Shown piece by piece: positions 18,784-27,174 of a stretch of DNA of 41,411 bases (positions are counted from its first letter, which is position 1; each line of letters begins with the position of its first letter). Below the pieces are notes generated by a model that had not been told where the DNA came from, made no database searches, and saw only the letters and a list, made by a program, of their open reading frames with translations. The stretch lies in the NCBI GenBank assembly GCA_012838945.1, contig DUOG01000033.1, positions 1-41,411 on the forward strand. The letters run 5' to 3'. The translations under genes were made by a program, and so were the position numbers. Origin of the DNA: Acholeplasmataceae bacterium (lineage in GTDB: Bacteria; Bacillota_I; Bacilli_A; ML615J-28; CAG-313).

Positions 18784-20385
18784 ATGAGCATTTTTAAAAA
18801 GAATAAAAGTGTTGAAAATAACCAATCAGGAATAAAGAAAAATAATAATACCAGTCCTGAGGATGAACAACTCATTGATCAACAAGAAATTGTTGAAGCT
18901 ATCGGTAATTACCAAAATAAAAAACTATATAATACCGTTAGTGAAAATATTGAGTTTATAAAGAGACTAATCGGTGAAAGTTGGGATTTATCAACTCGAG
19001 AAGTTGTCTTAGTTAATGAACAACAAAAGATTAAAATTGGGATTGTCTTTTTCGCTGGACTTGCTGACCAAACTTTTGTCAGTGAAACTATTTTAGAAAC
19101 TTTATCTAACAATTTCAAGAAAACAAACGAAAAGATTAAACCAGAAAACAGTCTAATTCACTTCAAAAATAATCTCTTAACAATGGCTGGCGTTGAAGAA
19201 GCTGATGACTTTGGCAAACTATTGAATCTTTTATTAAATGGAGACACCATTCTTCTCATCGATGATATTCAAAGCTGCCTTGTTATTGGCAGCCGTAAAA
19301 TGTTTGAGCGTGCTGTATCAGCTCCAGAAACCAATGTCACCGTCAAAGGTAGCAAAGACTCTTTCAATGAAAATCTTTTAACTAATATTTCTTTAATTAG
19401 AAGACGGGTTCGAAATCCTAATCTATGGGCTATCAGTTATATTATTGGTAAAAACTCTAACACCAATGTTGTAATGATGTATATTAAGGGACTTGCTGAG
19501 GACAAGTTAGTAAAGGAAGTAGAGAGTCGCATTAAAAAGATTGAAACCGACTCAATTGTAACAATAAATTATATGAAGTATTTTCTCAGGGAAAAACAAT
19601 TTTCTATCTTCCCATTAATTTATGATACCGAAAGACCTGATGATGCTTCAGCTTGTTTATTTGAGGGAAAAGTATTGGTACTAATAGATGGTTCTCCTTA
19701 TATCTTAGTCGCACCAAACTTTTTTATTAATAGTATGGTGTCAATGGATGATTTCCATAATCCATCCTATGCAGCAACCTTTTTTAGAACGATCCGACTA
19801 ATAGCCTTCTATTTATCAATTCTTTTGCCGGGGATATATCTGGCCATAATTATGTATCACTCCGAGCTCTTCCCCATCTTTTTCTTATTTAGTGTGGCGG
19901 GTCAAAGAGTTGATGTTCCTTTCCCGGCTTTTGTGGAAGTACTGATAATGTCACTTGCTTTTGACTTTTTACGGGAGTCAGGTGCTCGAATGCCTAGTGC
20001 CTTAGGTTCAACCTTGTCTTTTGTTGGAGCAATCATTATCGGGCAAGCTGCCGTTCAAGCAGGTTTGATATCAGCCATCATCGTAATTGTGATTTCAATC
20101 ACTGGTGTGGCTGGATTGATTATTGCTGATTATGATTTGAATATTGCGGTGACGGTCTTAAGATATGTTTTCATTATCCTTGGAGGACTTTTTGGTCTTT
20201 TTGGAATGGTCTTAGGAATCATTGTATTACTTACTCATCTAGTAAGTCTTCGTAGCTTTGGTGTTGCCTATTTTGCTCCTTTTGCACCATTTAAGGCTGC
20301 TGGCTTGAAGGATACATTCTTCCGAGCCCCTATCGGGAAACTATTTAAAACTAAAAAGTCCATAACCGAAAAATACCCAGAATAG
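18784..20385 (+). CDS. gerKA: GerA family spore germination protein (GerKA-like)
   Basis: 533 aa; GDTILLIDDIQSCLVIGSR, SLIRRRVRNPNL, GLAEDKLVKEVESRI, LLPGIYLAII, GARMPSALGSTLSFVGAIIIGQAAVQAGL. Confidence 0.95.
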   Translation: MSIFKKNKSVENNQSGIKKNNNTSPEDEQLIDQQEIVEAIGNYQNKKLYNTVSENIEFIKRLIGESWDLSTREVVLVNEQQKIKIGIVFFAGLADQTFVSETILETLSNNFKKTNEKIKPENSLIHFKNNLLTMAGVEEADDFGKLLNLLLNGDTILLIDDIQSCLVIGSRKMFERAVSAPETNVTVKGSKDSFNENLLTNISLIRRRVRNPNLWAISYIIGKNSNTNVVMMYIKGLAEDKLVKEVESRIKKIETDSIVTINYMKYFLREKQFSIFPLIYDTERPDDASACLFEGKVLVLIDGSPYILVAPNFFINSMVSMDDFHNPSYAATFFRTIRLIAFYLSILLPGIYLAIIMYHSELFPIFFLFSVAGQRVDVPFPAFVEVLIMSLAFDFLRESGARMPSALGSTLSFVGAIIIGQAAVQAGLISAIIVIVISITGVAGLIIADYDLNIAVTVLRYVFIILGGLFGLFGMVLGIIVLLTHLVSLRSFGVAYFAPFAPFKAAGLKDTFFRAPIGKLFKTKKSITEKYPE

Positions 20386-20396
20386 GAAGTGGAAAT

Positions 20397-21551
20397 ATGA
20401 AAAAGATTTCAACCTTATTGTTTTTTCTAATAATTGTCTTTTCCTTATTTGGTTGTGCTAGAGGTGAAACTGAAAAGATAGCCATTGCGACCGCATTTGG
20501 ACTTGACAAATCAGAAAATGGAGTCAAAGTATCATGTCAAGTACTAAATCCTCATGTTTTGGGACGGTTCCCGCGGGAAATCGCGGCAGTAACGGTTTAT
20601 CAAGAAGAAGGAGAAACAGTCTTTGATGCCATTTCCAAACTGTCTAAATATTTTCAAAGTGATATCTTTTTATCACACTTTCAAGTAATTCTGATTAGTG
20701 AAGAACTTGCTAGAGAAGGAATTGAACCTTACCTGAACTTCTTCTTTAGTAATATCAGTTCGCGTCATAAATTTTTAACGATTGTTACTAAAGGGATAAC
20801 TGCTTTAGAGGTCATCAATATTCAAACGACTTTAAATTTAATTCCTGGTATTTCAATCGAACAAAAGTTATTATCATCATTCAAGTATCATGGTACTTCT
20901 AGAGAAGTATATATTGATGAAATAATTAATGATATAAGGACCGATAAAGCCAATTTAACCTTATCCTCCCTCGAAGTACATGGCGATCCCAAAAAAGGAG
21001 AGGGGGAGGATAACCTCAAAAAACCAACTCCTGAGGCAATGATTAGCCTCTGTGGCTTAGCCGTCTTTAAGGAAGACAAGTTAATCGGTTGGCTAAATGA
21101 TATCGAATCAATAGCTTATAATATGATAATGGGAGAAATTAAAACGACCGTAATCCCAGTTAAATTTGATGAGGAGTCGACCGTATCAATAAAAATAAAT
21201 AAGTTTAAAAGTAAAATCGAATATCACAAAGATAAAAAACCTCCAGCCTTTACGATAAAGGTAAATGTCGAAGGAATATATTCCGAAGATACTTCAGGGA
21301 AAATCGAAAGAACACCTGAACATATCAATAAGGTTCAAAATAAGACCCAGGAAGAGATTAAACGTATTATCCAAAGTTGTATTCAAAAATCGCAAAATGT
21401 TTACAATACTGATTTCTTTAATTTCAGCAAAAAGATCCATCAAAGAAATCCAAAATATTGGAAAGAAATAAAGGATAACTACGATCAAATCTACAAAAAT
21501 ATTAACATTAATGTCGAAGTAAAAGTAAACATTATTAGAAATAGATATTAG
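20397..21551 (+). CDS. gerKC: Ger(x)C family spore germination lipoprotein (GerKC-like)
   Basis: Lipobox LFGC; 384 aa; position between GerKA and GerKB. Confidence 0.9.
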   Translation: MKKISTLLFFLIIVFSLFGCARGETEKIAIATAFGLDKSENGVKVSCQVLNPHVLGRFPREIAAVTVYQEEGETVFDAISKLSKYFQSDIFLSHFQVILISEELAREGIEPYLNFFFSNISSRHKFLTIVTKGITALEVINIQTTLNLIPGISIEQKLLSSFKYHGTSREVYIDEIINDIRTDKANLTLSSLEVHGDPKKGEGEDNLKKPTPEAMISLCGLAVFKEDKLIGWLNDIESIAYNMIMGEIKTTVIPVKFDEESTVSIKINKFKSKIEYHKDKKPPAFTIKVNVEGIYSEDTSGKIERTPEHINKVQNKTQEEIKRIIQSCIQKSQNVYNTDFFNFSKKIHQRNPKYWKEIKDNYDQIYKNININVEVKVNIIRNRY

Positions 21552-21560
21552 GGTGATTCT

Positions 21561-22694
21561 ATGACAGAAAGAATTGATGCTAAAGAATTTTTTGCTATTA
21601 CCTTTATTTATATTGTGGCCAATGACCTAATCAGAGGAATATTTGCTATTGAATTAAAACACAATGTATGGATTCCAGTTTTCTTAGGTATTATTGGTTC
21701 ACTGCTAATCTTTTCAGCATACCTAATAATATATAAAAATCAAAACTACCCAAATTTTACTGAAATGATTGAGCATCTTATGGGCAAGTTTTTAAGCAAA
21801 ATCTTCTTTATTATATATGCAGTATATTTTATGTTAGTAGCTTTCTTGAATAGCTATGTATACTTTGAATTAGTTAATGGATATCTACTTGATCAATCTC
21901 CTAACTTCATCATTGTTCTTGCCTGCTTATATGTAAGTTTCTATTCAGCAAGACATGGTATAGAAGTACTGGGTAGAGTATTACTAAGCTTCTTTTTTGG
22001 CCTTATTTTCTTTTATATAACATCTATTTCACTGTTGCTCATTGTAAATCAATTTAAATTTGATAACTTCCTGCCCATTTTAGAAGATGGTATAATTCCA
22101 ATAATAAAGCCTGCCTTTCAAATGTCTTACTCTATCCCTTTTGGTGAATCATTTGTTTTACTTATCCTTTTTCAATATGTTAAAAACAAAAAGAAAAAAA
22201 CTAAGGCTCCTTTATTAGGTATTCTTATGAGCGGCCTTGCTTTATTATCGCTTACCATTTTAAATATAGGTCTCTTGGGTAGCGAGGTAATGTCTTCAGA
22301 ATTAAGTCCTTCAGTTGGCCTTTCACACTTAATTAACTTTGGTAACATTATTCAAAGGTATGATATCATTGTTATCGGGTTGTTGGCGATCTATGCTTTT
22401 GGGAAAGCAACTCTATTAATTTATGTTGCTAAAAGCCTTATCAATGCAACATTCCCCAGAAAGAATGAAAAAATTCCTCGAAAGAGAGATGCAATTGTAC
22501 TTGGCATTGTTTGTTTAATTATCGCATTAGTAACAATTTTTACTAATGTTAACTACTTGAAATTTATTCTCTTTCGCGTTGAATATATTGTTCCATATGT
22601 TAACCTTACCTTTGAACTAATAATACCTTTTATACTCATTATCTTATCATTCATTAGAAAACCGAAAGAACAATTATCAAACTTTTCAATTTAA
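21561..22694 (+). CDS. gerKB: GerAB/ArcD/ProY family germination permease (GerKB-like)
   Basis: 377-aa polytopic protein directly after GerKC; 10-TM pattern. Confidence 0.9.
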   Translation: MTERIDAKEFFAITFIYIVANDLIRGIFAIELKHNVWIPVFLGIIGSLLIFSAYLIIYKNQNYPNFTEMIEHLMGKFLSKIFFIIYAVYFMLVAFLNSYVYFELVNGYLLDQSPNFIIVLACLYVSFYSARHGIEVLGRVLLSFFFGLIFFYITSISLLLIVNQFKFDNFLPILEDGIIPIIKPAFQMSYSIPFGESFVLLILFQYVKNKKKKTKAPLLGILMSGLALLSLTILNIGLLGSEVMSSELSPSVGLSHLINFGNIIQRYDIIVIGLLAIYAFGKATLLIYVAKSLINATFPRKNEKIPRKRDAIVLGIVCLIIALVTIFTNVNYLKFILFRVEYIVPYVNLTFELIIPFILIILSFIRKPKEQLSNFSI

Positions 22695-22749: not shown

Positions 22750-23022
22750 CTAAAACTTAACATCATCAAGTTCTTTATCACGTTCAAATACTGCCCGTAC
22801 ATAAGAACATTGGGGTATTATTTTTAATTGATTTTTTCTAGCAAAAGACACCAAAGCATCTACTAATTGCTTTGCTAGACCTTGTCCCCGAAATTCTTTT
22901 TGAACAAAAGTATGATGTGCAACAATTACTTTTTCATCTCGATAATCAAATTCAATCTCTGCAAACGCATTATTTTCACTTTCACCAATATAAAATTTAT
23001 TTTTTCCCGCTTTTATTTCCAT
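22750..23022 (-). CDS. GNAT family acetyltransferase (YjdJ-like, Gcn5-related)
   Basis: 90 aa; HHTFVQKEFRGQGLAKQLVDALVSFARKNQLKIIPQCSYVRAVFER. Confidence 0.85.
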   Translation of the reverse strand: MEIKAGKNKFYIGESENNAFAEIEFDYRDEKVIVAHHTFVQKEFRGQGLAKQLVDALVSFARKNQLKIIPQCSYVRAVFERDKELDDVKF

Positions 23023-23031
23023 ATTTTCACC

Positions 23032-23832
23032 CTACTTCGATAATAACATTTTATCGGATAATTCAATATTTTCATCCATTTCAAATTTTGTTAACAATTG
23101 TTCGATTGTTAACTTCTTTTTCTCTTCCCCTTTAACGTCAAGGACAATCTTTCCGTTGTTCAACATCAAGAGACGATTACCGTATTTAAGAGCATCACGC
23201 ATATTATGCGTTATCATAATCGTAGTAATTTCATGGTTTGACACGATATCATTAGTTAATGTTAACACAGTTAAGGCCGTTTTGGGATCAAGTGCGGCAG
23301 TATGTTCATCGAGTAACAATAACTTGGGCTCTTTAAGAGTTGCCATAATTAAAGTTACCGCTTGGCGTTGCCCACCTGATAAAAGGCCTACCTTTTGATT
23401 CAAACGGTCTTCTAAACCTAGATTTAATTCACTTAACTTATTTATGAAATACTTTCGATCTGACTTTACAAAGCCCCACTTAAGAGTTTTCTTTTGATCT
23501 CTTCGCATCGCAAGAGCCATGTTTTCTTCAATTGACATATTACCGGCTGTCCCTTGACTTGGGTCTTGACATACCCTTCCTAAGAACTTAGAACGTTTGT
23601 GTTCTGGTAGATTGGTAATGTTTGTTCCTTCAATTATTACTTCACCTTCATCAGGAAGTACTACTCCCGCAATTACATTAAGTAAAGTACTTTTTCCAGA
23701 ACCATTACCACCAATAATGGTAACAAACTCGCCCTTATTAATTTTAAGATTAATATTGTCAAGCGCCACCCTTAAATCCAGAGGGTTTCCGGTAGTATTA
23801 AAGGTTTTGGTAATGTTTTTTAACTCTAGCAT
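23032..23832 (-). CDS. ABC transporter ATP-binding protein (TrpXYZ-type amino acid importer)
   Basis: Walker A GGNGSGKST, LLSGGQRQAV, LLLLDEHTAALDP; overlaps permease gene. Confidence 0.9.
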   Translation of the reverse strand: MLELKNITKTFNTTGNPLDLRVALDNINLKINKGEFVTIIGGNGSGKSTLLNVIAGVVLPDEGEVIIEGTNITNLPEHKRSKFLGRVCQDPSQGTAGNMSIEENMALAMRRDQKKTLKWGFVKSDRKYFINKLSELNLGLEDRLNQKVGLLSGGQRQAVTLIMATLKEPKLLLLDEHTAALDPKTALTVLTLTNDIVSNHEITTIMITHNMRDALKYGNRLLMLNNGKIVLDVKGEEKKKLTIEQLLTKFEMDENIELSDKMLLSK

Positions 23833-24745
23833 TGTTACCCTCCTTTTTATTAAGCGCTTTTTTGATTAAAGGAATTATTAAGACAACGGTGATTAAAACA
23901 GCATATAATAATCGTTTCAAGTAATTAGGTAAACCTAATTGAATAGCACTATTGATAATTACATAATAGATAATTGTTCCTAAGACAACAGAAATTAACC
24001 AATTTTTAAAAGTTCGCTTGCCAAAGACAGCTTCTCCAATGATGATAGAAGATAGACCGACAACTAGCGTACCGACCCCAAGATTAATATCCGCTGTACG
24101 GTTAATTTGAGCGGTTAGTGAACCTCCCATCGCAATCAACATATTAGCAATGGCTAACCCTAAAATTATCATAAAGGTTGAATTAATTCCTTGGGCCCGA
24201 GCCATCTTAGAATTCATCCCAGTTGCTCTAATTGACATTCCAAGTTCAGTCCCAAAAAACCAGTAGATAATAATGACTATAATTATTACAATTAATAGTG
24301 AGATTAGAATAATATTATAATTTGGTTTACTGAAAAACTGTATAAAACTTTGAAATAAAGATTTGTTTTCACCAAGACGGGCTACGGTATCATATCCACT
24401 GGTGTTTCCCTTTTGAAACCCCATAATAAACATATTAATAGAATACAAACCAGTCATGGTGATGATACTTGAAAGTAATCCTGGGATTTTACATTTAGTA
24501 TATAAAATCCCCGTAATCATTCCGGCAATCGCTCCTGACAATGCTGCTAAAAGTGTCGCTACCCATGGATTTACTCCAGCAAGAATCAAAACGATGCCAA
24601 CCGCACCTCCGAGGGTAAAACTACCCTCTGCTGTTAGGTCCGGAAAGTCAAGGACTCGGTAGGTTATAAAGATACCAAGTGCCAGTAAACTATACGGAAA
24701 ACCAAAACGAAGCGCGTCAATAAGAATATAACTTATCGTTTCCAT
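23798..24745 (-). CDS. ABC transporter permease (TrpXYZ-type)
   Basis: 315-aa BPD_transp_2-like permease; VLDFPDLTAEGSFTLGGAVG motif. Confidence 0.9.
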   Translation of the reverse strand: METISYILIDALRFGFPYSLLALGIFITYRVLDFPDLTAEGSFTLGGAVGIVLILAGVNPWVATLLAALSGAIAGMITGILYTKCKIPGLLSSIITMTGLYSINMFIMGFQKGNTSGYDTVARLGENKSLFQSFIQFFSKPNYNIILISLLIVIIIVIIIYWFFGTELGMSIRATGMNSKMARAQGINSTFMIILGLAIANMLIAMGGSLTAQINRTADINLGVGTLVVGLSSIIIGEAVFGKRTFKNWLISVVLGTIIYYVIINSAIQLGLPNYLKRLLYAVLITVVLIIPLIKKALNKKEGNNARVKKHYQNL

Positions 24746-24750
24746 GACTA

Positions 24751-25737
24751 CTATTTATTACCTAATCGATCTTTAATTGATTGTGGTAGCTCCAATCCAA
24801 TAATCGCTAATACTTCTTCATTAACTACGACAGACCAATCTTCTTCACCTTGAACTTGAACTGACATAGTGGCTGGAGAGGCACCTTCTAGTAAGATTTT
24901 TGCTGCCATAGCTCCAGTTTGGACACCGAGTTTACGGTAGTTAATACTTAAAGTAATAGTTCCACCATTTAATACTTGTCCTTCTTCAGCATTGATAACT
25001 GGTATTCCAGCTTCATTTGTTATTTGCGTTACAATACTAAGGTTTTTTGCTAAATTGTTATCTGTCGGAATATATAATGCTTCAATTCCATCGCTGATTA
25101 GTTTATTCACAACTTGAGATATATCATTAATTTCTTCAACGGTTCTGACAAGTGCAGTTAGACCTGCTTCTTCAGCTGCCCCTTGAGCAATAGTAGCTTG
25201 AACTTGTGAATTCTTTTCTTTCACAGTGTAGATAATTCCAACTTTTTTAATCTCAGGAAGCAATTCTTTTACTAACTCTACTTGTTCTTTAACTGGATTA
25301 ATATCACTTGTTCCAGTAATATTTCCACCTGGGTTTTCCAAACTAGCTACTAGTTCCGCTGCTACTGGATCAGTTACTGCGGTAAAGAGGATTGGAATGT
25401 CTTTACCTTCAGTTTTTGCTGCTGCTTGTACGGCTACTGCAGCATCTGTCGCAATAGCTAAAACCAAATCACATTCACGAACGATATTAACACTCATTAC
25501 ATTTAAATCTTCTGCTCTTCCTTCGGGATTATAGTATACGATTTTAACATTATCATCTTTTACTAAACCATGTCTAGCTAATTCTTCAATAAAACCTTCT
25601 CTTGCTGAATCTAAAGCATTATGGGTTGCTAATTGAAGAATACCAATGGTATATTCATAATCTTTTTTACAACCAGCTAATCCAATACCCAATAATAAAA
25701 CTAACACTCCTAAACAAAGACTTCTAATTTTTTTCAT
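24751..25737 (-). CDS. ABC transporter substrate-binding lipoprotein (ABC_sub_bind/TrpX-like)
   Basis: Lipobox LAGC; LVLAIATDAAVAVQAAAKTEGKDIPILFTAVTDPVAAELV...NPGGNITGTSD; SD AGGAGGAAAG. Confidence 0.92.
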   Translation of the reverse strand: MKKIRSLCLGVLVLLLGIGLAGCKKDYEYTIGILQLATHNALDSAREGFIEELARHGLVKDDNVKIVYYNPEGRAEDLNVMSVNIVRECDLVLAIATDAAVAVQAAAKTEGKDIPILFTAVTDPVAAELVASLENPGGNITGTSDINPVKEQVELVKELLPEIKKVGIIYTVKEKNSQVQATIAQGAAEEAGLTALVRTVEEINDISQVVNKLISDGIEALYIPTDNNLAKNLSIVTQITNEAGIPVINAEEGQVLNGGTITLSINYRKLGVQTGAMAAKILLEGASPATMSVQVQGEEDWSVVVNEEVLAIIGLELPQSIKDRLGNK

Positions 25738-25768: not shown

Positions 25769-25805
25769 AAAAAGTGTTATTACCTTTGTATAAGTAATAA
25801 CACTT
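25769..25805 (-). terminator. Leader intrinsic terminator (attenuator)
   Basis: Minus strand AAGTGTTATTAC-TTATACAAAG-GTAATAACACTT-TTT, perfect 12-bp stem plus U-run, 32 nt upstream of the transporter ATG. Confidence 0.9.
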
Positions 25806-25840
25806 GAATTTCCATTAGATATTCCGGTTATTACTTATAC
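25788..25840 (-). promoter_or_regulatory. Predicted antiterminator: 14-bp perfect helix mutually exclusive with the terminator
   Basis: GTATAAGTAATAAC (25840-25827) is the exact reverse complement of GTTATTACTTATAC (25801-25788); the latter is the left arm of the terminator. Confidence 0.85.
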
Positions 25841-25868
25841 AACATTACTGTTGTGTACCGTAATAACC
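25827..25868 (-). promoter_or_regulatory. Predicted anti-antiterminator hairpin
   Basis: GGTTATTAC (25868-25860) pairs with GTAATAACC, sequestering the antiterminator arm; nested ACAAC-AGTAAT-GTTGT. Confidence 0.75.
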
Positions 25869-25926
25869 TTCTCTTTAATTACTTTCCTGCTTCTCTTAAG
25901 TAAGCCAAAAAGCCAAGAGATTATCG

Positions 25927-26004
25927 TTACTCACGATACACGCTTGGAAAGTAATAATAATAATAAAATTGTGCGTTAGCTATTTTAAATATTGACTTTT
26001 TCAT
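25927..26004 (-). CDS. Tyrosine-rich leader peptide MKKSIFKIANAQFYYYYYFPSVYRE
   Basis: 25 codons plus TAA; SD GAAAGGAGC; codons TTT TAT TAT TAT TAT TAC TTT; lies between a consensus promoter and an attenuator. Confidence 0.88.
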   Translation of the reverse strand: MKKSIFKIANAQFYYYYYFPSVYRE

Positions 26005-26034
26005 AACATAGCTCCTTTCAACTTTATTGCTAGT

Positions 26035-26063
26035 ATTATAGCACCAAAATTTTAGCAATGCAA
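26035..26063 (-). promoter_or_regulatory. Sigma-A-type promoter of the leader/ABC transporter operon
   Basis: TTGCAT-17 nt-TATAAT on the minus strand. Confidence 0.85.
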
Positions 26064-26419: not shown

Positions 26420-27174
26420 TTAACTAGACTTTTTGAATTTATAATATAGTTCGTATATTTTCTTAAATAAAAACAAGACAACTATTCCTAGCAAGGCTGA
26501 TAAGGCAATATAAATGATGTTAATTTCCATTCCTAAAAGGGTTGTCTCTTTTCCCCAATTAAAAAACCATTCAAGTGGTGTGCCCCCTTCTGGCCGATAA
26601 GAATAGAAATAATTAGCTGTAAAGTCTGGCATTAACTTGTTAAAGATATTGTTAATCGGAACCGAAAGAACAAATAAAGATACAACCATTATAATACTAT
26701 TACGATAACTCTTTTTATCCACTTCGATTTGATCTGTCATTAATCCCCAAAGGGTTATTGCGACAATAAGCATATGACCAAAAATATAAGCCATCCCACG
26801 CCAATTAAGAATCGTTTGATAATTTTCTAAACTATCAGCAAATATTATACTCAACATTGCAAAAGGTAAATTGAAGCAAAATGCAACAGTTTGTAATGTC
26901 TTATTTTTCAAAGCAAAAGCAAACAGTAACACAAAGTTAGCAAAGTGACAGATTTGAAATGGTACTATTTCTGGTTGAAATTGATATCCACTTTTTACAT
27001 AGATTTCAACATTTCTTGCGATTAGCACACTACTGCTATCACCGATAAGATAATTCCAATTAACCGATTAGTTTTTTTATTATTTTTCTTGGTTAAATAA
27101 TATAAGATTACCGTTAAAATAAAAGAACTAAATATAAATAGGATGTGTCCTAAACTCCACATTTTGAATGTCAT
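26420..27174 (-). pseudogene. YwaF/TIGR02206-type integral membrane protein gene split by a frameshift
   Basis: 27174..27022 encodes MTFKMWSLGHILFIFSSFILTVILYYLTKKNNKKTNRLIGIILSVIAVVC*, and 27028..26420 continues in another frame (LIARNVEIYVKSGYQFQPEIVPFQICHFANF...). Confidence 0.65.

Follow-up and report, generated by a model that had tools for sequence, protein, structure and literature searches.

A leader ORF upstream of an ABC importer operon

The window, i.e., the whole stretch of 41,411 nucleotides that was analyzed (contig DUOG01000033.1 of an Acholeplasmataceae bacterium), carries on its minus strand an ABC importer operon preceded by a promoter, a short leader ORF, and a series of pairing segments:

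26035..26063, minus strand: sigma-A promoter TTGCAT-17-TATAAT (TTGCAT box, 26063-26058; TATAAT box, 26040-26035; spacer, 17 nt), from sequence, with a putative transcription start
26012..26018, minus strand: Shine-Dalgarno (SD) sequence AAAGGAG of the leader ORF, from sequence
25927..26004, minus strand: leader ORF MKKSIFKIANAQFYYYYYFPSVYRE (ATG at 26004; stop codon TAA, 25929-25927)
25951..25965, minus strand: Tyr codon run TAT TAT TAT TAT TAC (putative sensor), from sequence
25946..25955, minus strand: segment 1, ATTACTTTCC, partner of segment 1'
25943..25947, minus strand: left arm CCAAG of P0, a candidate pause hairpin
25926..25941, minus strand: segment A, GTGTATCGTGAGTAAC, the ORF end with its stop codon, partner of segment 2
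25907..25917, minus strand: right arm CTTGG of P0 (25917-25913) plus U-run
25878..25887, minus strand: segment 1', GGAAAGTAAT
25853..25868, minus strand: segment 2, GGTTATTACGGTACAC, partner of A (antitermination) or 3 (termination)
25826..25840, minus strand: segment 3, GTATAAGTAATAACC, partner of 2 or 4
25788..25805, minus strand: segment 4, AAGTGTTATTACTTATAC, partner of 3 (14 bp) or 5 (12 bp)
25769..25783, minus strand: segment 5 plus U-run, the 3' half of the intrinsic terminator
24751..25737, minus strand: substrate-binding lipoprotein (PF04392), predicted to be tyrosine specific
23798..24745, minus strand: ABC permease (PF02653)
23032..23832, minus strand: ABC ATPase (PF00005)
22750..23022, minus strand: small GNAT-like protein (PF14542), possibly the last gene of the operon, as suggested by a 9-bp spacing

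A spore germination operon (GerA, GerAC, and spore-permease genes; 18784-22694, plus strand) adjoins the importer operon, and a TMEM164-family membrane protein (PF14808), from a family better known in eukaryotes, is encoded at 26420-27028.

When the 295 bases of the leader region were read again, the promoter, SD, ORF, Tyr codons, and segments described in the earlier note were all found where it had placed them on the minus strand, and its stem lengths were borne out (10 bp for 1:1', 9 bp for 2:3, 14 perfect bp for 3:4, and 12 bp followed by U5 for 4:5). Folding was far better for the leader than for its dinucleotide shuffles (z = -6.6; 0/200 as good). Two features expected of a leader-peptide attenuator are present: a short, translated-looking ORF with an SD lies between the promoter and the first gene, and it carries a codon run for an amino acid linked to the downstream genes. 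The ORF has 25 codons and contains TTT-TAT-TAT-TAT-TAT-TAC-TTT; at the 4.1% Tyr usage of the window, the chance of five consecutive Tyr codons in an ORF of 25 amino acids is approximately 2.5e-6.

The transporter had been described as TrpXYZ type, and the Tyr run had been taken to point to a tyrosine or aromatic importer. The first description holds at the level of the family only, as the binding protein scored 267.7 against TrpX (NF041285), below the equivalog cutoff of 390, no Trp codon occurs in any of the leaders, and the substrate pocket is a Tyr pocket of the CD0873 type and unlike that of the Trp-binding protein SP1069. CD0873 of C. difficile, the best solved relative of the window's binding protein, binds tyrosine (PDB 6HNI) and has been described as a binding protein and adhesin; its Glu263 contacts the tyrosine hydroxyl and its Tyr279 excludes tryptophan, and SP1069 has Ala and Gln at these positions (PMC6816091). 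The window protein has the same Glu263 and Tyr279, and equivalents of both are retained in 22 of 22 aligned binding proteins encoded behind a leader, in agreement with the importer expected from the Tyr run. On these residues, the binding protein is predicted to be tyrosine specific, which would provide a substrate for importers whose nearest named family is one for tryptophan.

Very probably, the element attenuates transcription of a tyrosine ABC importer operon, with a translating ribosome as the sensor of charged tRNA-Tyr. At the sequence level, this is supported by the anatomy of the element and its conservation, by covariation of A:2, 2:3, and 4:5, by the match between codons and target genes, and by the residues of the tyrosine pocket.

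Distribution, target genes, and recoded leaders

A search of 100 related genomes and the GTDB contigs with the binding protein returned 35 loci, some of which are the same place found twice. The earlier note had proposed that upstream regions be aligned for a conserved Tyr-rich ORF, and the same leader was recovered in 22 of these loci, including the window's own. The 22 leader ORFs are 18 to 33 codons long, with a run such as FYYYYYFPR. After the run come CCAAG...CTTGG with its U-run, then a segment resembling GGAAAGTAA, and finally two hairpins based on GTTATTAC/GTAATAAC. A covariance model (R1) built from 19 loci carrying the leader matched in 24 of 43 genomes of the order and in 31 of 398 sampled Bacilli genomes, belonging to five families (E<=0.01); no element was found outside class Bacilli in a separate 398-genome phylum sample. 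Close importer homologues of the order that have their upstream region on the contig all carry the Tyr element, except in genus g10 (G018 and G034), where the element is found at aroB instead. With a model lacking the codon run (R2), no additional target genes could be assigned with certainty in either the order or the class; its weak matches L090, L092, and L093 did not stand up, L092 being the g10 importer, whose leader region is of another, non-Tyr kind. The leader region of the g10 importer operon (L002 and L004) differs in lacking a Tyr run, although its terminator is similar, and the L002 binding protein has Lys at the Glu263 position.

The usual position of the element is directly upstream of PF04392 ABC importers, with the permease gene coming first in L062. 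In two genomes, a Tyr/Phe leader (MFYYYYFNPRKSRV and MFYFYDYFNPRKGRV) precedes aroB-aroC, and in one genome (L058:1474-1714), cysK lies behind the leader MININKSFNFYCAYCICFPRKLVS, in which three codons specify Cys (FYCAYCICFPR); a short membrane-like ORF separates the two. The L058 leader retains two Tyr codons; every other listed locus has a Tyr-rich leader. Codon identity therefore tracks the controlled gene, with Tyr/Phe for aroB-aroC and three Cys for cysK. At L057 and L059 (genus g10), it is the Tyr/Phe version of the leader that lies before aroB-aroC. On balance, it seems likely that uncultured Bacilli possess an attenuator chassis that is portable and conserved in structure, in effect a T-box equivalent read by a ribosome. 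Its amino-acid specificity would be set anew when the leader ORF is recoded, with the pairing partners coevolving. If so, the chassis reads Tyr for importers, Tyr/Phe for aroB-aroC, and Cys for cysK, and the aroB and cysK cases constitute a natural codon-swap experiment.

As Phe codons are about as numerous as Tyr codons in some leaders (L011, L020, L059, and L060), the starvation signal read may be Tyr plus Phe. That the attenuator responds to Phe and Tyr jointly, as a sensor of general aromatic starvation, and that the importer carries both is a tentative reading to which we give appreciably less weight than to tyrosine sensing. It would account for the leader composition (Tyr, 23.7% of residues; Phe, 10.6%), for the alternation of F and Y in several leaders, and for the presence of the module at aroB-aroC, which act ahead of every aromatic amino acid in biosynthesis. 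However, the window's run consists of five Tyr codons flanked by two Phe codons, the binder of the tyrosine hydroxyl in CD0873, Glu263, is retained in all 22 aligned leader-bearing proteins, and some of the Phe codons may be there for the sake of RNA pairing (1' with TTT of ATTACTTTCC).

Nascent peptides can themselves stall the ribosome, as TnaC does in response to tryptophan, and the residues P-R, which follow the codon run in most leaders, could suggest that nascent FYYYYYFPR arrests the ribosome on free tyrosine or another small molecule. This is very improbable, as the codons of the run differ where the target gene differs (cysK) and stalling on free tyrosine would induce the importer when tyrosine is plentiful. 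Moreover, in L019, L020, L062, and L063, a shift of reading frame over the CCAAG-type motif replaces P-R with Q-E or Q-G but leaves the RNA motif intact; its persistence across the frame change indicates that CCAAG acts as RNA and that selection is on the RNA.

Pairing partners and ribosome position

For the proposed attenuator, the earlier note had envisaged a multistate switch in which masking of segment 1 frees segment 1' to pair with segment 2 as the antiterminator. The analysis supports Tyr-dependent attenuation through a ribosome at an aromatic (tyrosine) importer, and it supports 2:3 and 4:5 alternating with 3:4, but the partner assigned to segment 2 was wrong. In the window, 1':2 is a 5-bp match with a bulge, and across loci its own pairs were weaker than swapped pairs (-3.4 versus -4.3 kcal/mol; 19,956/20,000 permutations as good). 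The pairings 2:3 and 4:5 covary, as does A:2, strongly; 1':2 is not conserved. Segment 2 has as its conserved partner the 3' end of the leader ORF, stop codon included (A:2; 25941-25926 with 25867-25853), and the stop codon lies inside the A loop in 22 of 25 loci. The A:2 duplex of the window is far stronger, at -23.2 kcal/mol, with 15 bp formed with segment 2 and 6 bp just upstream of it, leaving very little likelihood that 1':2 is the antiterminator.

Own A:2 pairs reached -16.3 kcal/mol compared with -8.9 kcal/mol for swapped pairs, with 0/20,000 permutations as good, in tests that leave shared ancestry among the loci in place. This preference persisted when most of the shared GTTATTAC core of segment 2 was removed, and A:2 also holds in the family with an unrelated terminator sequence (L064-L067). 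Examples are GATGTCATG with CATGACATC in L007, GATATCATAA with TTATGATATC in L015, and, from the family with the unrelated terminator, GTAATCAA with TTGATTAC in L067. The 1:1' pairing was also stronger than that of shuffles (-11.2 versus -5.1 kcal/mol; 0/200 as good), an advantage present in only 13 of 25 loci.

In an alignment of 25 distinct loci covering the leader, P0, 2:3, and 4:5, 96.4% of cells were paired, and two-sided changes were present in 13 of 24 pairs (0/500 shuffles as good). The terminator 4:5, with its U-run, had 93.8% of cells paired and two-sided changes in seven pairs. The P0 hairpin (CCAAG/CTTGG) was paired in 99% of cells across the 25 loci and has a U-run (U5) attached; it is a likely candidate for an RNA-polymerase pause site.

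It is very unlikely that the leader is a riboswitch binding tRNA or a ligand, whether a T-box or some other kind, in which the ORF is incidental. T-boxes abound in these genomes (the window's own has 12, as well as a DHQ synthase domain match), but the T-box model that finds these 12 (RF00230) gave no match at the locus, and no Rfam family reached threshold in the window or 13 related loci (the best matches at E<=10 look like chance). Moreover, the ORF is preceded by an SD, carries a conserved codon run, and contributes its end to the switch.

The dependence of the tRNA-Tyr attenuator on ribosome position was simulated in 25 loci with partition functions computed with the ribosome footprint masked, before segment 5 is made. 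With the ribosome mid-run on the Tyr codons, the median probability of 3:4 was 0.85 (>0.5 in 19/25 loci), and with the ribosome at the stop codon it was 0.00 (>0.5 in 1/25 loci); the values for the window were 0.99 and 0.00, respectively. Without a ribosome, 3:4 was low in the window (0.13), in line with formation of 1:1'. In some loci (L012, L015, L023, and L024), A:2 was lost before segment 4 in the masked folding. Computation thus points to an antiterminator, A:2 and 3:4, that is mutually exclusive with the terminator and dependent on ribosome position. At equilibrium, the complete RNA favored the terminator in every ribosome state; therefore, the switch must be kinetic, with timing deciding the outcome.

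Stalling, pausing, termination, and read-through would then proceed as follows. Polymerase would start from the promoter at 26035-26063 and pause at P0, while a ribosome catches up on the leader ORF. When Tyr-tRNA is ample, the ribosome would reach the stop codon inside segment A and cover A, so that 2 would pair with 3 and the terminator 4:5 would form. When Tyr-tRNA is scarce, the ribosome would stall within the run of five Tyr codons, where it would block 1:1' and open P0; A, being free, would pair with 2, and 3 would capture 4 before 5 is made, allowing polymerase to enter the importer genes.

Relation to known attenuators

Ribosome-mediated attenuation is a textbook system of Proteobacteria, and to our knowledge only scattered cases have been published from the Firmicutes. 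The earlier note's statement that Firmicutes rely mostly on T-boxes holds for these genomes; the lineage employs both tRNA-sensing strategies, the T-box and the ribosome-read leader, with a conserved Bacilli attenuator family coexisting with T-boxes in the same genomes. The his and trp leaders of E. coli and Salmonella comprise a codon run, a stop codon in the switching segment, a pause hairpin, alternating helices, and an intrinsic terminator. The window has the same layout of leader ORF, codon run, stop codon, alternating helices, and terminator, its chain of three hairpins resembles that of his, and its candidate pause hairpin P0 occupies the position of the pause hairpin in the his and trp leaders (the latter from general knowledge). 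In contrast to these, the window family has Tyr (once Cys) codons, Bacilli hosts, and importer, aroB-aroC, or cysK targets, and the Rfam scan, the sole check of sequence likeness, revealed none to the his and trp leaders. We know of no described precedent for a tyrosine codon run in a leader, and no description of a tyrosine leader peptide was found in the openly accessible literature that was searched. The mechanism class is therefore known, while the attenuator family, its Tyr specificity, and the lineage appear to be new.

Leader-peptide attenuators have been reported in Firmicutes for hisS*/hisZ of bacilli (PMC2965389) and for ilv-leu of S. aureus (PMC5794164). Like the window, these have a codon run in a short 5' ORF in Gram-positive hosts in which T-boxes are usual; the window family differs from both in amino acid, genes, and RNA and in having one module at three kinds of target. 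The streptococcal trpXYZ T-box (PMC9382623) resembles the window in subjecting a PF04392-family aromatic importer to attenuation by tRNA charging, but it binds tRNA directly and senses Trp, whereas here a ribosome would read Tyr codons and no T-box is present at the locus.

Two further arrangements were observed. In genome G021, two importer binding-protein genes lie in tandem (L012 and L060), each behind a separate leader copy. At L022, which comes from a family distant within the class, the importer is preceded by a different short ORF, containing FYFSYF, and by a terminator of another kind, approximately 300 to 90 bases ahead of the binding-protein gene; this may be a Phe/Tyr leader of independent origin.
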